From assembly GCA_021325475.1 (NCBI GenBank), contig JAJPHA010000122.1:1-64000 (forward strand): DNA of 64,000 bases, written 5' to 3'. Below the pieces are notes generated by a model. It searched no databases and had not been told where the DNA came from. It worked only from the letters and a program-made list of their open reading frames with translations. The translations under genes and the position numbers were made by a program. Origin of the DNA: Rhodanobacteraceae bacterium. Lineage in GTDB: Bacteria > Pseudomonadota > Gammaproteobacteria > Xanthomonadales > Rhodanobacteraceae. Of the stretch, positions 142-7,230 are shown in pieces (position 1 is the first letter of the stretch; every line of letters starts with the position of its first letter).

Positions 142-702
142 ATGCGCAAACCGCCCATCGTTCACGGCACGCGACAGGCTGAAGGCAGCCATTTCCTGCG
201 CGTCGAGCTGGTCGATCTCGAATTCTCCAACGGCGAGCGCCGCACCTACGAACGCCTGAAGGGTTCCGGTCTCGGCGCGGTGATCATCGTGCCGATGCGC
301 GACGACGACACGGTGCTGCTGGTGCGCGAATACGGCGCGGGCATCGACCGCTACGAACTCGGCCTGCCGAAGGGGCGGTTGGACCAGGACGAAACAGTCG
401 AACAAGGCGCGAATCGCGAGCTCAAGGAGGAGATCGGCTACGGTGCGCGCGAGCTGCACATTCTCACCACCTTGTCGCTGTCGCCGGCGTACATGACCAG
501 CATGACCCACGTCGTGCTCGCGCGCGACCTGTATCCCGAGCGCCTGCCGGGCGACGAGCCGGAGGAGCTCGAGGTGGTCGAGTGGAAACTCTCGCGCCTG
601 CACGAGCTGATTGAACGGCCGGACGTGAGCGAGGGCCGCTCGATCGCGGCGCTGTTCATCGCCCGCGAATACCTCGCCGGCCGGTTCCGGCCGCAGCCGT
701 GA
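142..702 (+). CDS. nudE: NudE-like ADP-sugar/ADP-compound Nudix hydrolase
   Basis: A 186-residue Nudix hydrolase that by family would cleave ADP-ribose, NADH and diadenosine-type compounds to AMP plus a phosphorylated remainder in the cytoplasm. A perfect Nudix box runs from G78 to Y100: G, five residues, E84, seven residues, then RELKEEIGY, which carries the metal-binding glutamates. Length and the N-terminal beta-rich region fit the NudE/ADPRase group. The ATG at 142 follows a TACAAT box by 6 nt and has no Shine-Dalgarno sequence. The gene ends in a GTGA overlap with cysQ, so the two are probably co-transcribed; both act on adenine nucleotide by-products. Exact substrate preference is inferred. 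Confidence 0.85.
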   Translation: MRKPPIVHGTRQAEGSHFLRVELVDLEFSNGERRTYERLKGSGLGAVIIVPMRDDDTVLLVREYGAGIDRYELGLPKGRLDQDETVEQGANRELKEEIGYGARELHILTTLSLSPAYMTSMTHVVLARDLYPERLPGDEPEELEVVEWKLSRLHELIERPDVSEGRSIAALFIAREYLAGRFRPQP

Positions 703-1544
703 GCGGCGCCGCGCCCGATCTCGCGCGCCTGGCGCAGGAGTGCTGCGCGATCGCGCGCGCGGCCGGTACGGCGATCCTGCGCGTATACGCCGGCGAGTTC
801 GCGGTCGAACGCAAGGACGACGATTCGCCGCTCACCGCCGCGGACCTGGCGGCGCACCGCGCCATCCTCGACGGTCTGCGCGCGCTGACGCCGCACTGGC
901 CGGTGCTGTCGGAGGAATCGGCCGAGCAGGCGCCGTGGTCGGAGCGCCGCACCTGGCGGCGCTACTGGCTGGTCGATCCGCTCGACGGCACGCGCGAGTT
1001 CGTCAAGCGCAACGGCGAGTTCACCGTCAACATCGCCCTGATCGAGGACCACGCGCCGGCGCTCGGCGTGGTCTACGCGCCGGCGCTCGGCGAGCTGTAC
1101 CGCGCCTGGCGCGGCGGTCATGCGTATTTTTCCACCATGCCGCAAAGCACCGAAATCCCGTTGCGCACACGCCGCCGCGGCGATCCGCTGATCGTCGCCG
1201 GCAGCCGCTCGCACGGCGATGCGCGCACCGCGGCGGCGCTGGCACGGCTCGGCCGCCACGAACTGCTGCCGCTCGGCTCGTCACTCAAGTTCTGTCGCGC
1301 GGCACGCGGCGAAGTGGACCTGTACCTACGCTACGGCGCGACCAGCGAATGGGACACCGCGGCCGGCCAATGCGTGCTCGAGCAGGCCGGCGGCCGGGTG
1401 CTGACGCTCGACGGCGCCGCGCTCGCCTACAACACCAAGGCGTCGCTGATCAATCCGGACTTCCTCGCCTGCGGCGATCCCGCGGTGGACTGGACCGGCC
1501 TGATCGCCGGCACCGCGCACGCGCCGCCGCGCGCCGGCCATTGA
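699..1544 (+). CDS. cysQ: 3'(2'),5'-bisphosphate nucleotidase CysQ
   Basis: Inositol-monophosphatase-fold enzyme of 281 residues that removes the 3' phosphate of PAP/PAPS during sulfate assimilation. The metal-binding signature VDPLDGTREF lies near residue 92, followed by the CysQ-typical KRNGEFTVN. A glutamate-rich EESAEQ segment (the first metal-site motif) lies upstream, and the C-terminal SEWDTAAG matches the last family motif (WDxAAG). Translation starts at a GTG inside the nudE stop (GTGA overlap), implying coupling. One of the dispersed AT-rich motifs of this window lies within the gene near 1125-1135. Confidence 0.88.
   Translation: MSGAAPDLARLAQECCAIARAAGTAILRVYAGEFAVERKDDDSPLTAADLAAHRAILDGLRALTPHWPVLSEESAEQAPWSERRTWRRYWLVDPLDGTREFVKRNGEFTVNIALIEDHAPALGVVYAPALGELYRAWRGGHAYFSTMPQSTEIPLRTRRRGDPLIVAGSRSHGDARTAAALARLGRHELLPLGSSLKFCRAARGEVDLYLRYGATSEWDTAAGQCVLEQAGGRVLTLDGAALAYNTKASLINPDFLACGDPAVDWTGLIAGTAHAPPRAGH
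1125..1135 (-). repeat. Dispersed AT-rich motif (variant)
   Basis: Reads GTGGAAAAATA on the minus strand, inside cysQ, and sits next to a GCGGCAT segment that also flanks other copies. A weak member of the GTGGAAAATGC family described in the findings. Confidence 0.35.
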
Positions 1545-1588: not shown

Positions 1589-2401
1589 ATGTCCGACATC
1601 GACGAGCTGCTGCGCATCATGGCGAAATTGCGCGACCGCGAGCACGGCTGCCCGTGGGACGTGGCGCAGGACTTCGCCTCGATCGCGCCGTACACCATCG
1701 AGGAGGCCTATGAGGTCGCCGACGCCATCGACCGCGGCGATTTCGTCGCCCTGCGCGACGAGCTCGGTGATCTGCTGCTGTAGGTCGTGTTCCACGCGCG
1801 CCTGGCCGAGGAGGCCGGCGCGTTCACCTTCGCCGACGTGGTCGCGGCGATCTGCGCCAAGCTCGTCCGCCGGCATCCGCACGTGTTCCCCGACGCCGAA
1901 GGCAATTTGCAAAAAGTGGAAAATGCCGCAGCGCAGACCGCCGCCTGGGAGGCGCACAAGCGGCGCGAGCGCGCCGGCGACGATGACCCCAGCCTGCTCG
2001 CCGGCATTCCGCGCGGCCTGCCGGAATGGCTGCGCGCACTGAAACTGCAGAAGCGCGCGGCCAGCATCGGCTTCGACTGGAGCGAGCCCGGCCCGGTGCT
2101 GGACAAACTCGCCGAGGAACTCGCCGAGGTGCGCGCCGAACTCGCCGCCGGCGCGGACCCGGCGCGGCTGGAAGACGAGATCGGCGACGTGCTGTTCGTC
2201 GGCGTCAATCTCGCGCGCCTGACCGGCATCGACTATTCCGCCGCGCTGCGCCGGGCCAACGCCAAATTCGAACGCCGCTTCCGGCGCATGGAGCAACTCG
2301 CCGCCGCCGACGGCACCACCCTCGCCGGCAAGCCGCTGGCCGAGCAGGACGCCTATTGGAACCGCGCCAAGACGGAGGAAACCGGCGGCGCTAAACCTTG
2401 A
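1589..2401 (+). pseudogene. mazG: mazG nucleoside triphosphate pyrophosphohydrolase, interrupted by an in-frame TAG
   Basis: Two-domain MazG (all-alpha NTP pyrophosphohydrolase; hydrolyses NTPs to NMP and PPi, with a stringent-response role in E. coli). The frame opens with ATG at 1589; residues 1-64 carry the HGCPWD motif and the EExxE metal-binding helix (EEAYEV, DELGDLLL). The next codon, 1781-1783, is TAG where MazG proteins normally have Gln (LLLQVVFHAR). The same frame then continues without interruption to 2401, including the second MazG domain with EDEIGDVLF. The change is a single base, CAG to TAG. TAG is used as a normal stop elsewhere in the window (pyrB, gspG, gspM), so this is not a recoded genome. 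A recent nonsense mutation, a sequencing error, or suppression are all possible; a GTG at 1787 could restart the second part. Confidence 0.85.
1914..1930 (+). repeat. Dispersed AT-rich motif GTGGAAAATGC, mazG copy
   Basis: Core at 1916-1926. The 17-mer AAGTGGAAAATGCCGCA is identical to the copy at 38931-38947 on the other strand. It lies inside coding sequence and is preceded by TTTGCAAA. Confidence 0.6.
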
Positions 2402-2448: not shown

Positions 2449-3282
2449 ATGCGTGTCCTTCTGGGTTTCGGTCTGCTGCTGGTGTCGCTGAGCGCGTCGG
2501 CGGGCTACGAATGCCGGTACAGCGAGGAGCGCAAGCTCGACATCGACGCCGCCGGCTTGCGCACGCTGGCACTCAAGCTCGGTTCCAGCGATGCGCGCGT
2601 GCAGGGCGTGCCGGCATCGAATCGCATCGAGGTGCGCGGCAAGGCCTGCGCCTCGGCGCCGGACCGGCTGGCCGGGTTGACCATCGATCAGCACCGCGAC
2701 GGCGACACGGTGACCGTGACCACGCACCAGGCGGAGACGCAGACGTTTTCCTGGTTCGGCTCGAACTACGCCTATCTCGATCTCGAAGTGCGGCTGCCGG
2801 CGACGCTGGCGCTGCGCATCGAGGCCACTTCGGGCGACGCCGAGGTCGCCGACGTGGCGAGCCTGGATTTCGTCTCGCATTCGGGCGACCTTTCGCTGCA
2901 CCACGTCGCCGGCACGGTGGCCGCGGAGGTGCATTCCGGCGACATCCAGGCCGACGACGTCGGCAGTTTCGAGTTGCGCCGCTCCGGCTCCGGCGACGTG
3001 CGCGTGCGCAAGGTGCGCGGCGAAGTGAAAGTCGGTCACGTCGGCTCGGGCGATCTCGAATTCAGCGACGTCGGCGGCGGTGTTGAGATCGGCTCGGTCG
3101 GTTCGGGCGACGTCACCGTCGACCACGCCGCCGGCAGCGTGCGGATCGACGCGATCGGTTCCGGCGACGTCAGCGCCAGCGGCATCGGCGGCGATCTGGT
3201 GGTCCAATCCGCCGGCAGCGGCCGCATCCGGCATCACGGCGTGAAGGGGCGCGTCGAGGTGCCGAAGGATCACGACGATTGA
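2449..3282 (+). CDS. Secreted DUF4097/DUF2807-type beta-repeat protein
   Basis: 277-residue exported protein of unknown function. Residues 1-21 form a signal peptide (hydrophobic LLGFGLLLVSL, then SASA). From about residue 125 to the end there is a run of short beta repeats, each built around S-G-D followed by alternating hydrophobics (for example SGDAEVADV, SGDLSLHHV, GSGDVTVDH), as in the putative adhesin/polymer-binding DUF4097-DUF2807 families that fold into a beta-helix. ATG 2449 is chosen over an upstream in-frame start because it begins the signal peptide. It is 47 nt downstream of mazG and may be in the same transcript. Two GC-rich hairpins follow the stop. Confidence 0.65.
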   Translation: MRVLLGFGLLLVSLSASAGYECRYSEERKLDIDAAGLRTLALKLGSSDARVQGVPASNRIEVRGKACASAPDRLAGLTIDQHRDGDTVTVTTHQAETQTFSWFGSNYAYLDLEVRLPATLALRIEATSGDAEVADVASLDFVSHSGDLSLHHVAGTVAAEVHSGDIQADDVGSFELRRSGSGDVRVRKVRGEVKVGHVGSGDLEFSDVGGGVEIGSVGSGDVTVDHAAGSVRIDAIGSGDVSASGIGGDLVVQSAGSGRIRHHGVKGRVEVPKDHDD

Positions 3283-3292
3283 GGGGAACGCG

Positions 3293-3314
3293 CCTCTCCC
3301 GCGGGCGGGAGAGG
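3293..3314. terminator. GC-rich hairpin after the DUF4097-type gene
   Basis: CCTCTCCCGC pairs with GCGGGAGAGG across two bases, and a second stem (CGCGCC-GAA-GGCGCG, 3316-3330) follows at once. There is no T-tract, so it may be a repeat-type hairpin or a processing site instead of an intrinsic terminator. Confidence 0.4.
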
Positions 3315-3434
3315 TCGCGCCGAAGGCGCGGGTGGGGGTGGCAGGGAAGTGATCTCGTTCTTTTCTCCAAGCGCGTCCTGCGGTTTTCCGCTCGCGTCCG
3401 GCGCGCGGGTTACTTGCTGACCAGAGCAGAGCTT

Positions 3435-3457
3435 CCGCTCGGCCGCAGGCCGAGCGG
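3435..3457. repeat. Perfect inverted repeat CCGCTCGGCC, copy 1
   Basis: Ten-base arms around GCA. The same arms recur at 3819-3841 around CGC. Confidence 0.75.
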
Positions 3458-3460
3458 GTC

Positions 3461-3484
3461 ACTTCTTTGCTGGTGCAAAGAAGT
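3461..3484. repeat. Perfect inverted repeat ACTTCTTTGC
   Basis: Ten-base arms around TGGT, followed by AACC. Related in sequence to the repeat at 3744-3771. Confidence 0.75.
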
Positions 3485-3743
3485 AACCAAGAAACACCTC
3501 GAAAGCAGAGCATCCCCAGGAGGACCTGCACGAAGTTCTGCGAACAGATGAATGTTCCAGTACAACTCGGTCGCACCGGGTCGGACGGCTCTTCGCTTCG
3601 CTTGCGACGAAAGACCTGCATGCGAAGCGAGCGACGTTGCAGCCCGCGGCGGACGAGTTGTATACGGAGCCTTCATCCCTTCACAAAATTGTCGTGCAGT
3701 TCCTCCCGAGGGATGCTTTGCTCTGACGTGCTTTCTTTTGGTG

Positions 3744-3771
3744 ACTTTTCTTTGCACGAGCAAAGAAAAGT
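3744..3771. repeat. Perfect inverted repeat ACTTTTCTTTG
   Basis: Eleven-base arms around CACGAG. The flank TTACCC and the T-rich arm resemble the 3461-3484 element. Confidence 0.75.
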
Positions 3772-3818
3772 TACCCGCTGTCTGAAGGGCAGCGGAAGCT
3801 TTGGCTGTGGAAAGTAAC

Positions 3819-3841
3819 CCGCTCGGCCCGCGGCCGAGCGG
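3819..3841. repeat. Perfect inverted repeat CCGCTCGGCC, copy 2
   Basis: Same ten-base arms as 3435-3457, with loop CGC; a degraded third arm (GCGGCCGAGCG) lies just downstream. Confidence 0.75.
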
Positions 3842-3941
3842 AAGCTCTTGATTTGCAGAATCACCAAACCCCTGCGCGGCCGAGCGAAAGCCCCCGCTCG
3901 TTCGACTTCGCCAAAAAAACGCAACAGCGCGAGACACTCCG

Positions 3942-4736
3942 TCAGCGTCGGGCCGCGCCGAATTTCGCCAGCGCCTGCGCGTGCAGCGCCGGCGTCCCGG
4001 CGAGCACGCTCGTGGTGTCGAGGGTCAACTCGGCGCCGGCGAGATCGGTGAACACGCCGCCGGCCTCGCGCACGATCACGGCAAGCGCGGCGATGTCGAG
4101 GATGTTCACGTCCGATTCGATCACGAGGTCGAGGCAGCCGCGCGCGAGCAGGTGGTAGTGCAGGAAGTCGCCGTAGCCGCGGATGCGGCCGCTCGCGCGG
4201 ATCAGTTCGCCGAGCGCGTTCCAGCGCGCATCCCGGGTCAGGGTCTTGACGTTGCCGATGGAGATCGCGGTCTCGGCGCCGAATTCGCGCGTGTCGGCCA
4301 CGCGCAGCCGCTCGCCGTCGCGGAATGCGCCGCCGCCGGCGCGCGCCCAGCAGGTCTCGCCGAATTCCGGCGCACAGGACACGCCGAGCACGAGCGCGCC
4401 GCGATGCATCAGCGCGATCTGCGTGGAGAACATCGGGTAGCCGCGCACGAACGCTTTGGTGCCGTCGATCGGATCGATCAGCCAGAGCCAATCGCCCGCG
4501 CCCTCGCGCCCGCTCTCCTCGCCGTAGCGCGCATGCTCCGGGTACGCGCGCCGGAGTATACTTTTTATCACCGCCTCGGCCTCACGGTCGGCGACGGTCA
4601 CCGGCGTGTGGTCGGCCTTGGTCTCCACCGCAACGCCGGCGCGGTAGTGGCGACGGATCACTTCCGCCGCCGCCGCGGCGGCGTCGCGCGCGACCGCGAG
4701 CGCCTCGTCGAGAAATGTGGAAAATGCGGCATCCAT
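3942..4736 (-). CDS. hisN: Histidinol-phosphatase, inositol-monophosphatase family (HisN-like)
   Basis: 264-residue Mg-dependent phosphatase. It carries the family signature WLIDPIDGTKAF near residue 85, an upstream GEESG metal ligand segment, and a C-terminal DVNILDIAAL matching the (W/L)DxAA motif. The GDFLHYHLLARG segment resembles HisN enzymes, which dephosphorylate L-histidinol phosphate, more than SuhB or CysQ. An earlier GTG at 4745 exists, but ATG 4736 overlaps the gspN stop as TGATG, which supports translational coupling and is my chosen start. Position at the end of the gsp operon is unusual for a histidine gene. Substrate is inferred; a general inositol phosphatase remains possible. 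Confidence 0.75.
   Translation of the reverse strand: MDAAFSTFLDEALAVARDAAAAAAEVIRRHYRAGVAVETKADHTPVTVADREAEAVIKSILRRAYPEHARYGEESGREGAGDWLWLIDPIDGTKAFVRGYPMFSTQIALMHRGALVLGVSCAPEFGETCWARAGGGAFRDGERLRVADTREFGAETAISIGNVKTLTRDARWNALGELIRASGRIRGYGDFLHYHLLARGCLDLVIESDVNILDIAALAVIVREAGGVFTDLAGAELTLDTTSVLAGTPALHAQALAKFGAARR
4716..4732 (+). repeat. Dispersed AT-rich motif GTGGAAAATGC, hisN copy
   Basis: Core at 4717-4727, antisense to the first codons of hisN. The 17-mer TGTGGAAAATGCGGCAT is identical to 8226-8242, which lies over the start of gspK. Confidence 0.6.
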
Positions 4737-5500
4737 CACAGCCACGGAAACACCTGTCCGCGAATGACGAGATGCGAGCGGCCGTCCGCCTGCGGCTCGC
4801 CGATGTAGCGCAACGCCTCCTGCACGTGCGGATTGCCGTCGCGCGCGGCGAGCTCGGCATCCGCCACGAAGCCGCCGGCGCTGACGCGGAAGCGGCCGTG
4901 CAGCTCCAGCGGCCCGCCGAGGTCCCGCACCTCGCCGTCGATCGCGCCATCACTGGCGGTGGCGAAGCGCGCCTCGAGATCGCCGAACTCGGCCTGCGCC
5001 GCGCCGCTCACCGCGGCCGCCTGCCAGCGCAGGCTGCCCTCGGCCTGCTCGAGCCAGGCGCCGCGCAGATGCGCCTGCGCCAGCTCGCCCTGGATGTCGC
5101 CGTGCAGTTGCAGCGCCGGAATGTCGAGCACCGGCGCGGCCAGGCTCGCCGGCAGGCGGAACCGCGCCGCGCGCACGCGCACGTTGCCGTCGGCATCGCG
5201 CGTGACCTCGCCGGATGCCGTCACGGCATCGCCGACGAGATGCAGGTCCGCGACCAGCGTCCCCTGCAGCAGCGGCAGCGCGTGCAGGTCCCAGTCGAGT
5301 GCGCCGAGCTCCCGATCGAACACCCGCAGGTGCGCGGCGCGACCCTGCCAGACGCTGCCGCTCACGTCGTCCAGGCGGATCGCGCCGAGGCGATCGGCGA
5401 CCCAGCGATACGCCGTCGCCGCCGGCAGCGTGGCGACGCCGATGCCGGCGATGAGGAACACCACGAGCAGGAAGACCAGCGACCGACGCAATACGGACAT
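4736..5500 (-). CDS. gspN: Type II secretion system protein N
   Basis: 254-residue bitopic inner-membrane protein. An N-terminal transmembrane helix at about residues 5-30 is followed by a periplasmic domain rich in beta strands with repeated H-G and L-D-W patterns, as in the T2SSN family. Its role is accessory; in Xanthomonas XpsN interacts with the L-M platform and the secretin. It is the last gsp gene here, its stop overlaps the hisN ATG, and it lies 36 nt downstream of gspM across an AT-rich spacer containing TTATACACAATGTCGCA. Confidence 0.8.
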   Translation of the reverse strand: MSVLRRSLVFLLVVFLIAGIGVATLPAATAYRWVADRLGAIRLDDVSGSVWQGRAAHLRVFDRELGALDWDLHALPLLQGTLVADLHLVGDAVTASGEVTRDADGNVRVRAARFRLPASLAAPVLDIPALQLHGDIQGELAQAHLRGAWLEQAEGSLRWQAAAVSGAAQAEFGDLEARFATASDGAIDGEVRDLGGPLELHGRFRVSAGGFVADAELAARDGNPHVQEALRYIGEPQADGRSHLVIRGQVFPWL

Positions 5501-5536
5501 GGTATATTATTTTATTTATACACAATGTCGCACGCC

Positions 5537-6031
5537 CTACGGCGCGCGATCCTGCAGGGTCACCCGCGCGTTGACCAGACCGAGCCCTTCCACCTTGTCG
5601 GCGGAAAAGTCGCTCACTGTGATGCCGTAGTCACGCGTCAACCGCTCGAGCCAGTCGACCAGTGCATCGAAACTGGCGATCTCGAAACTCACCCGCACGC
5701 TGGCCGCACCCGTCGGCTCCACCCGCTTGAGCGCACCGGCAAGCCCGGCCGCGCGCGCGGTCGCATCCGCCAGCGCGAGCAGCGATTTGCCCTGCCGGTC
5801 GGCCTGGCTGCGCGTCCCCTGCGCGCGCAGTTCACGGGCCTCGCCCGCGGCCCGGCGCATCCAGGCGAGGTCCGCGCGCTGGCGCGCGACCCGCGCGACG
5901 AGCTCGGCGCGCGCGTGGCTCAGCGGATACCAGACGAAGGCCCAGCCGAGCAGCAGCGCGGCGAGCGCGGCGCCGCCGGCGAGCACATGCCGGTCGCGCA
6001 TCGACAGCCGCTCCCACCATGCGCGGATCAC
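5537..6031 (-). CDS. gspM: Type II secretion system protein M
   Basis: 164-residue inner-membrane platform protein with a short cytoplasmic N-terminus (R-A-W-W-E-R-L), one transmembrane helix at about residues 18-35, a coiled region and a ferredoxin-like C-terminal domain. It pairs with GspL in the assembly platform. The start is a GTG at 6031 overlapping the gspL stop as GTGA; an internal ATG near 6001 would cut into the transmembrane helix and is less likely. Length matches the family (about 160 residues). Stop codon is TAG. Confidence 0.82.
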   Translation of the reverse strand: MIRAWWERLSMRDRHVLAGGAALAALLLGWAFVWYPLSHARAELVARVARQRADLAWMRRAAGEARELRAQGTRSQADRQGKSLLALADATARAAGLAGALKRVEPTGAASVRVSFEIASFDALVDWLERLTRDYGITVSDFSADKVEGLGLVNARVTLQDRAP

Positions 6032-7230
6032 GGCGCCCCCCCGGCGATGCGCAGCCGGCCGTCCACGCCCTCGGCGCTGCTGGTGGCTGCGGTGACTTCG
6101 ACTTTCAGTCCCGGCAACGTGGTCATGCGTTCGCGCATCAGGTCGAGCGTCTGCACGTCCGGCGCGCGCAGCGCGAGCTCGAGCACGCCGTTGTGGTATT
6201 CGATGCCGCTCAGACTCGTGCGCGTGGTGCTGGCGAGCAACGGCGCGACCTCGGCGAGCCGCGGCAGCAGACCGCCGGCGCCGCCGCCGCGTTGTGCCGC
6301 GAGCGCGCTTTCCAGCAACTGGCGCGGATCGCCGGCGACCTGGTCCATCTGCGGGAACGCCTCGTGCAAGGCAGCGCGCGCCGCCGCCTCCAGCCGCGCG
6401 GACTGGCGCGCCAGACGCCAGCAATCGAGGCCGTAGTATACAAATAGCAAAAGCAGCGCCGCCGCCGCGAGCGCCGCGGCGCCGCGCCACAGACGCGCCG
6501 CCGGCGCCTGCCGGTGGCGTGGCGCGAACTCGCCCTGCAACAGATTCGGCTCTGGCTCGGCGAGCAGGCATTCGGCGAAGAAGGCGAGCGCGTCGCGCGG
6601 CCCGGCATGGTGGCGCACGCTCAGCCCCGGCAGGACCGGTGGCGAGGCGGCGGCGCGGAAATCGTGGAGCTCGAAGGCGAGCGCCTCGGCCCGGCCGGCG
6701 TTGATCACGTCGAGCCACTCGGCGAGCCCGGCGGGATCCGCGACGCCGGCCTGCGCCGGCGCGCTGCGCCACAGGGCACGGGCGTCCTCGAGCACGACGC
6801 TGCCCGTGCGCTCGTCGACCGGCAGCGCCTGGGTCTCGGCGTAGAGCGCATCGGCACGCACGCCAGCCGCGGCGAGCCGCGCCAGCCATTCGGTCAGCCG
6901 CGCGCGCGCCACCACCGCCACCGGCACGCGTTCGCCCGCGGCGCGTTCGGCGACGGCGAAGTGCAGCTCCTCCACCGGCGCGGCGAGCTGGTCCTCGAGC
7001 GCGAACGGCACGGCCTTGACGAACTGCGCGCGCGATACCGCCAGCCGCGGCGTATCGAGCAGCAGCACGTCCTCGGCCGGCGCCAGCGCGACCACGCGCT
7101 CGGCGCGCGCCAGCAGCGGCGCCGGCGGCGTGCCCGGCTGCGCGCCGGACAACACGCGCCCGGCGGCATCCTGCGCCAGCCAGGAACATTGGCCGTCCGC
7201 GTGCAGCCGGATCAGCAGACGCGCGGACAT
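6028..7230 (-). CDS. gspL: Type II secretion system protein L
   Basis: 400-residue platform protein. The N-terminal two thirds is the cytoplasmic actin-like domain that recruits the GspE ATPase (P-R-L-A-V-S-R-A-Q-F, then AVPFALEDQLA, a GspL hallmark). A transmembrane helix at about residues 254-275 leads to a periplasmic ferredoxin-like domain that dimerises with GspM. The gene overlaps gspM by 4 nt and is separated from gspK by 76 nt with no clear promoter. GspE itself is not encoded nearby, so its partner must lie outside the window. Confidence 0.85.
   Translation of the reverse strand: MSARLLIRLHADGQCSWLAQDAAGRVLSGAQPGTPPAPLLARAERVVALAPAEDVLLLDTPRLAVSRAQFVKAVPFALEDQLAAPVEELHFAVAERAAGERVPVAVVARARLTEWLARLAAAGVRADALYAETQALPVDERTGSVVLEDARALWRSAPAQAGVADPAGLAEWLDVINAGRAEALAFELHDFRAAASPPVLPGLSVRHHAGPRDALAFFAECLLAEPEPNLLQGEFAPRHRQAPAARLWRGAAALAAAALLLLFVYYGLDCWRLARQSARLEAAARAALHEAFPQMDQVAGDPRQLLESALAAQRGGGAGGLLPRLAEVAPLLASTTRTSLSGIEYHNGVLELALRAPDVQTLDLMRERMTTLPGLKVEVTAATSSAEGVDGRLRIAGGAP

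Follow-up and report, generated by a model that had tools for sequence, protein, structure and literature searches.

A mazG-family gene at the start of a contig in this draft genome is interrupted by a single in-frame TAG at a codon that is Gln in every relative examined. Our favoured reading, to which we give a probability of about 0.6, is that a conserved Gln codon of an ordinary chromosomal mazG was recently turned into a stop, in this lineage or strain, by a sporadic nonsense substitution. With standard decoding, translation would end after 64 residues, within the first MazG domain; the organism would then have no full-length MazG, and mazG would be a pseudogene of recent origin or else a null allele that is still segregating. 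The TAG is a true feature of the given sequence, and an ordinary one that fits the description of in-frame stops in a published survey (PMC7918605). From the sequence comparisons below we infer that the base is probably genuine, the event recent and MazG activity lost.

The mazG frame and codon 65 in relatives

The window analysed here, the whole stretch of 64,000 bases (G000:C12:1-64000), starts at base 1 of contig C12, and its features around mazG are given in Table 1. The mazG frame comprises 271 codons including the terminal TGA, and codon 65 is its sole internal stop. Read through at that codon, the product scored 331.9 bits against NCBIfam NF007113 (nucleoside triphosphate pyrophosphohydrolase; cut-off 208) and 287.3 bits against TIGR00444 mazG (cut-off 148.3); frame and profile scores bear out the view, taken in an earlier note on this DNA, of a 271-codon mazG intact on both sides of a single TAG. 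Residues 1-264 match the two-domain MazG of E. coli solved as 3CRA and 3CRC (3cra_A, E = 1.7e-79; 3crc_A, E = 9.5e-79; for 3CRC, PMC10014863). As in the solved protein, two MazG domains are present and the conserved acidic residues are kept; the difference is that the frame here is cut by TAG, where members of the family have an uninterrupted one. E38, E39, E42, E58 and D61 in the first domain, and E176, E177, E180, E197 and D200 in the second, were invariant in a nine-sequence alignment, and we take these ten residues to be metal ligands. In E. coli MazG, activity resides in the second domain. The earlier note had spoken of a C-terminal catalytic domain, a term to be used with caution, as conserved acidic residues occur in both domains and the Mg-binding residues described for M. 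tuberculosis MazG lie in the first (PMC10014863).

Table 1. Features of the mazG region, in coordinates of the window
Feature	Position	Strand	Basis
mazG-family gene (nucleoside triphosphate pyrophosphohydrolase) with one in-frame TAG	1589..2401	+	Frame and family profile matches
In-frame TAG, codon 65, Gln in every relative examined	1781..1783	+	Codon comparison
5' part, 64 codons, the standard-code product; first half of MazG domain 1	1589..1780	+	
Open frame from GTG, 204 aa; remainder of domain 1 and domain 2; possible restart product	1787..2401	+	
MazG domain 1 (PF03819), interrupted by TAG	1667..1888	+	Profile match
MazG domain 2 (PF03819), stop-free	2099..2278	+	Profile match
cysQ (3'(2'),5'-bisphosphate nucleotidase), open, upstream neighbour of mazG	699..1544	+	
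nudE (ADP compounds hydrolase), open, overlapping the cysQ start	142..702	+	

Downstream of mazG, an intergenic region of the window (3427-3865) contains inverted repeats with 37-nt arms that are 95% complementary (3428-3464 and 3812-3848), and within it a GC-rich palindrome occurs twice (3435-3457 and 3819-3841); this may be a dispersed repeat element.

A MazG match was found in 77 of 79 relatives searched, and 49 of the 77 were fetched for comparison at codon 65, the other 28 being left out. The codon specified Gln in all 49 (40 CAG, 9 CAA; 22 and 7, respectively, in the first 29 relatives, 18 and 2 in the further 20) and in 80 of 80 genome_contigs loci (68 CAG, 12 CAA), these being the best 80 of 588 confirmed; six sequences were common to both sets. 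TAG at codon 65 was absent from the 49 relatives and the 80 loci, in keeping with the earlier suggestion that the stop had replaced a conserved Gln usually encoded by CAG. Eight relatives flagged "1 TGA", "1 TAA" or "1 TAG" were all fetched; codon 65 was Gln in each, and their alignments contained stops only at the C-terminal end (query positions 266-267). Querying viral_contigs with the exact sequence surrounding the TAG yielded no match. The congener nearest in MazG was G004 (79% identical), and the nearest of the best 80 genome_contigs loci belonged to two "Proteobacteria" MAGs, followed by one Rhodanobacteraceae and one Lysobacteraceae MAG. A disabling change thus sits at a conserved site of an otherwise open frame, as expected of a pseudogene, and no second MazG copy was found in the 2,896,902-base genome (138 contigs).

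The two congeners without a MazG match, G008 and G011, also had no good matches to cysQ and nudE (1.0e-17 and 2.3e-5, respectively, in G011; none and 3.4e-7 in G008). The joint lack of good matches to all three genes could reflect either loss of the block or a gap in the assembly.

The genetic code and other interrupted genes

TAG terminates 10 of the 56 genes predicted in the window. Among 218 training frames from 470,630 bases of the genome, the terminators were TGA in 168, TAG in 31 and TAA in 19, where the TAG count may include one or both of the interrupted frames described below. The earlier note had called the code standard and had named pyrB, gspG and gspM as genes ending in TAG; all three were confirmed to do so, with gspM matching below its family cut-off (26.1 versus 60 bits). 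RF1 was recovered in two pieces, covering profile positions 6-244 on contig C30 (307.9 bits) and 215-358 on contig C2 (219.4 bits) of a 361-position profile; each piece singly is below the cut-off of 423.25, the two having been scored separately. The ends of the two contigs share 107 identical bases across which the frame runs on, and by sequence RF1 is present and split over a contig break, where recoding would call for its loss. As to the amber suppressor tRNA for which the earlier note had suggested a search, none of the 41 tRNAs found and typed reads UAG, in a set that includes tRNA-Gln CUG and is incomplete, with no Ile tRNA and no Ala-TGC.

Genome-wide amber recoding was considered and is not supported, as RF1 is present, TAG is an ordinary terminator and clear interruptions number only two in the 1,343,187 bases scanned; neither many TAGs at one ancestral residue nor an avoidance of TAG as terminator was found. 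A standard code is therefore supported but not proven, and the earlier claim holds as far as the TAG terminators and RF1 go.

Other interrupted genes were sought by scoring stops on the coding signal in the 30 codons flanking each stop on either side and in the first 12 after it, over 1,343,187 bases (46% of the genome; 470,630 + 264,818 + 607,739), with the top rows judged by eye (12, 14 and 26 rows for the three parts, respectively; lower rows were left out). In the 470,630-base part, the mazG stop came second for coding signal on both sides among 3,492 in-frame stops flanked in each direction by 30 or more open codons. Ranked first was a TAG at G000:C119:31069 (L276) in an MFS-type transporter (family name assigned by eye), at a site where all 11 fetched relatives have Tyr (8 TAC, 3 TAT). 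By eye, these two were the only clear lone interruptions in the 1,343,187 bases, both of them TAG; there was no clear case among the top 14 rows of the 264,818-base part or the top 26 rows of the 607,739-base part, nor among the top 14 rows from 210,602 bases of the relative G002. By eye, the remaining high-scoring rows resemble normal junctions between genes or stretches read in the wrong frame. Since 64.5% of simulated stops placed in genes scored at least 0.3, and 78.3% at least 0.2, some cases may have been missed. The occurrence of TAG in both cases is unremarkable because 63.9% of the single-base changes that can turn a codon of these genes into a stop produce TAG, with a chance of about 0.4 of TAG in two of two cases. 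Gln and Tyr codons reach TAG through different base changes, as is expected of scattered events.

Elsewhere in the genome, short similar open stretches separated by TAGs, partly about 375 to 390 bases apart, were seen at about 2748-6765 on the minus strand of L187 (G000:C14); they probably represent a long repetitive gene read on its wrong strand.

Constraint around the stop and the case for recent loss

Between this mazG and L004, pN/pS was 0.109/0.400 before the stop and 0.149/0.587 after it, compared with 0.068/0.545 and 0.107/0.580, respectively, between L004 and L005; pN of pairs including the interrupted gene exceeded that of pairs among L004, L005 and L006. Judged from these substitutions, the gene is constrained on both sides of the stop, somewhat less so than in the comparison of L004 with L005. 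At 157 columns otherwise invariant in the genus, the interrupted MazG has eight private changes (3 of 45 before the stop, 5 of 112 after it), compared with 0 to 3 in each of 13 congeners; when all 29 others are considered it has two, and theirs range from 0 to 4. Trees of MazG and CysQ were compared for 12 congeners with both genes (G006 was dropped). The end branch of this lineage was 0.315 (14.0% of the tree) in MazG and 0.244 (10.4%) in CysQ; the lineage is also long in the CysQ tree, where another congener is longer still, and support for its position was 0 and 39. Private changes, pN and branch length may therefore give, at most, a mild hint of an earlier relaxation of constraint.

A recent nonsense substitution is favoured because a single break interrupts an otherwise open coding frame, because both domains keep their conserved acidic residues, and because the substitution pattern is constrained on both sides of the stop. 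It is favoured further because TAG is an ordinary terminator in a genome with RF1 and no UAG-reading tRNA among 41, and because two clear interruptions, at a Gln and a Tyr codon, are what scattered nonsense changes would give. The genome also carries a stop-free TIGR00042 house-cleaning pyrophosphatase, which we take to be of the RdgB type. In a study of mycobacteria, mazG-null strains were viable, with mutation frequencies raised in stationary phase and on exposure to oxidative stress, and in mazG-null M. smegmatis CG-to-TA changes rose 26-fold from exponential to stationary phase (PMC3855555). Because such a pyrophosphatase is present and mazG-null mycobacteria are viable, MazG loss looks bearable, and by analogy it may be tolerated in this organism.

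The survey of Belinky et al. (2021) describes in-frame stops in bacterial genes as widespread and mostly short-lived, on the scale of polymorphism, and works through a TAG/CAG family as an example (PMC7918605). The mazG stop resembles the cases described there as an in-frame TAG at a CAG-type site of a conserved gene with a purifying-type pattern, and differs from them in that the TAG was found in one genome only and in none of the relatives examined (PMC7918605).

Alternative readings and significance

It is rather unlikely, though well worth weighing, that mazG is intact in the organism and that the draft assembly shows a T at 1781 because the base was miscalled or comes from a minority strain. 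The assembly consists of 138 contigs with 1.96% contamination, a contig end is 1.8 kb away from the TAG, and the gene is otherwise unbroken, an absence of further decay that is equally expected from error; the transporter TAG at C119:31069 is likewise a lone stop in a conserved frame. Against this, only two clear lone interruptions were found in 1,343,187 bases. If both were errors, a hand estimate (assuming that about 2.7% of single-base coding changes give a stop and that about 65% of stops are detected) puts the base error rate at about 1 in 10,000, which is high for a deep short-read assembly but not for a shallow one. Of the three options offered in the earlier note, recent inactivation fits best and assembly error keeps this lesser probability, while the third, readthrough, finds little support in RF1, the tRNAs and the Tyr-site TAG.

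For functional readthrough, the TAG would act as a down-regulator, with some full-length MazG made through near-cognate decoding (for example by tRNA-Gln CUG) or by an unassembled suppressor. The constrained pattern on both sides of the stop is consistent with this, although most of that history may predate the TAG, and the survey, with its TAG/CAG family as example, makes the case that readthrough occurs, for short times, at many in-frame stops of bacteria (PMC7918605). The incompleteness of the tRNA set (no Ile tRNA or Ala-TGC among the 41) likewise leaves room for a suppressor. With RF1 present, no UAG-reading tRNA among the 41, TAG in none of the relatives examined and the sole other clear lone TAG replacing Tyr rather than Gln, we consider readthrough improbable; nor can it be argued from conservation of the stop, because the TAG occurs in one genome only.

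Restart at the GTG at 1787-1789, which begins, as the earlier note had observed, six bases after the T of the TAG and hence three bases past that codon, would yield a protein of 204 residues that includes the second MazG domain and has partial activity. This frame scores above the NCBIfam cut-off (214.0 versus 208 bits) and keeps the second domain, but residues 1-66 of the first domain would be lost and, by eye, no good Shine-Dalgarno sequence precedes the GTG, which is weak evidence because ATG 1589 also has none. V67 is an invariant family residue in the nine-sequence alignment, so GTG 1787 is not an acquired start. A C-terminal domain made alone in this way, as had been proposed, could be produced, yet it has little in its favour and we think it very improbable. 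Most improbable of all, to our minds, is low-level natural amber suppression in the lineage, through a suppressor tRNA missing from the assembly or through efficient near-cognate decoding, with mazG and the C119 transporter carrying tolerated TAGs at reduced product levels; if it were true, lowered MazG would raise the CG-to-TA rate, a change of the same kind as the CAG-to-TAG step, given that MazG in mycobacteria is described as an antimutator that counters CG-to-TA changes (PMC3855555).

For annotation, the point is that full-length MazG is probably not made, or else that base 1781 is doubtful; otherwise the stop matters little. If a recent nonsense substitution is indeed what the TAG represents, and the base is real and fixed, it would be a one-step mazG null of natural origin, within a lineage in which MazG matches are near-general among the relatives searched, and, if real, it would be useful for understanding the role of MazG outside the organisms already studied.
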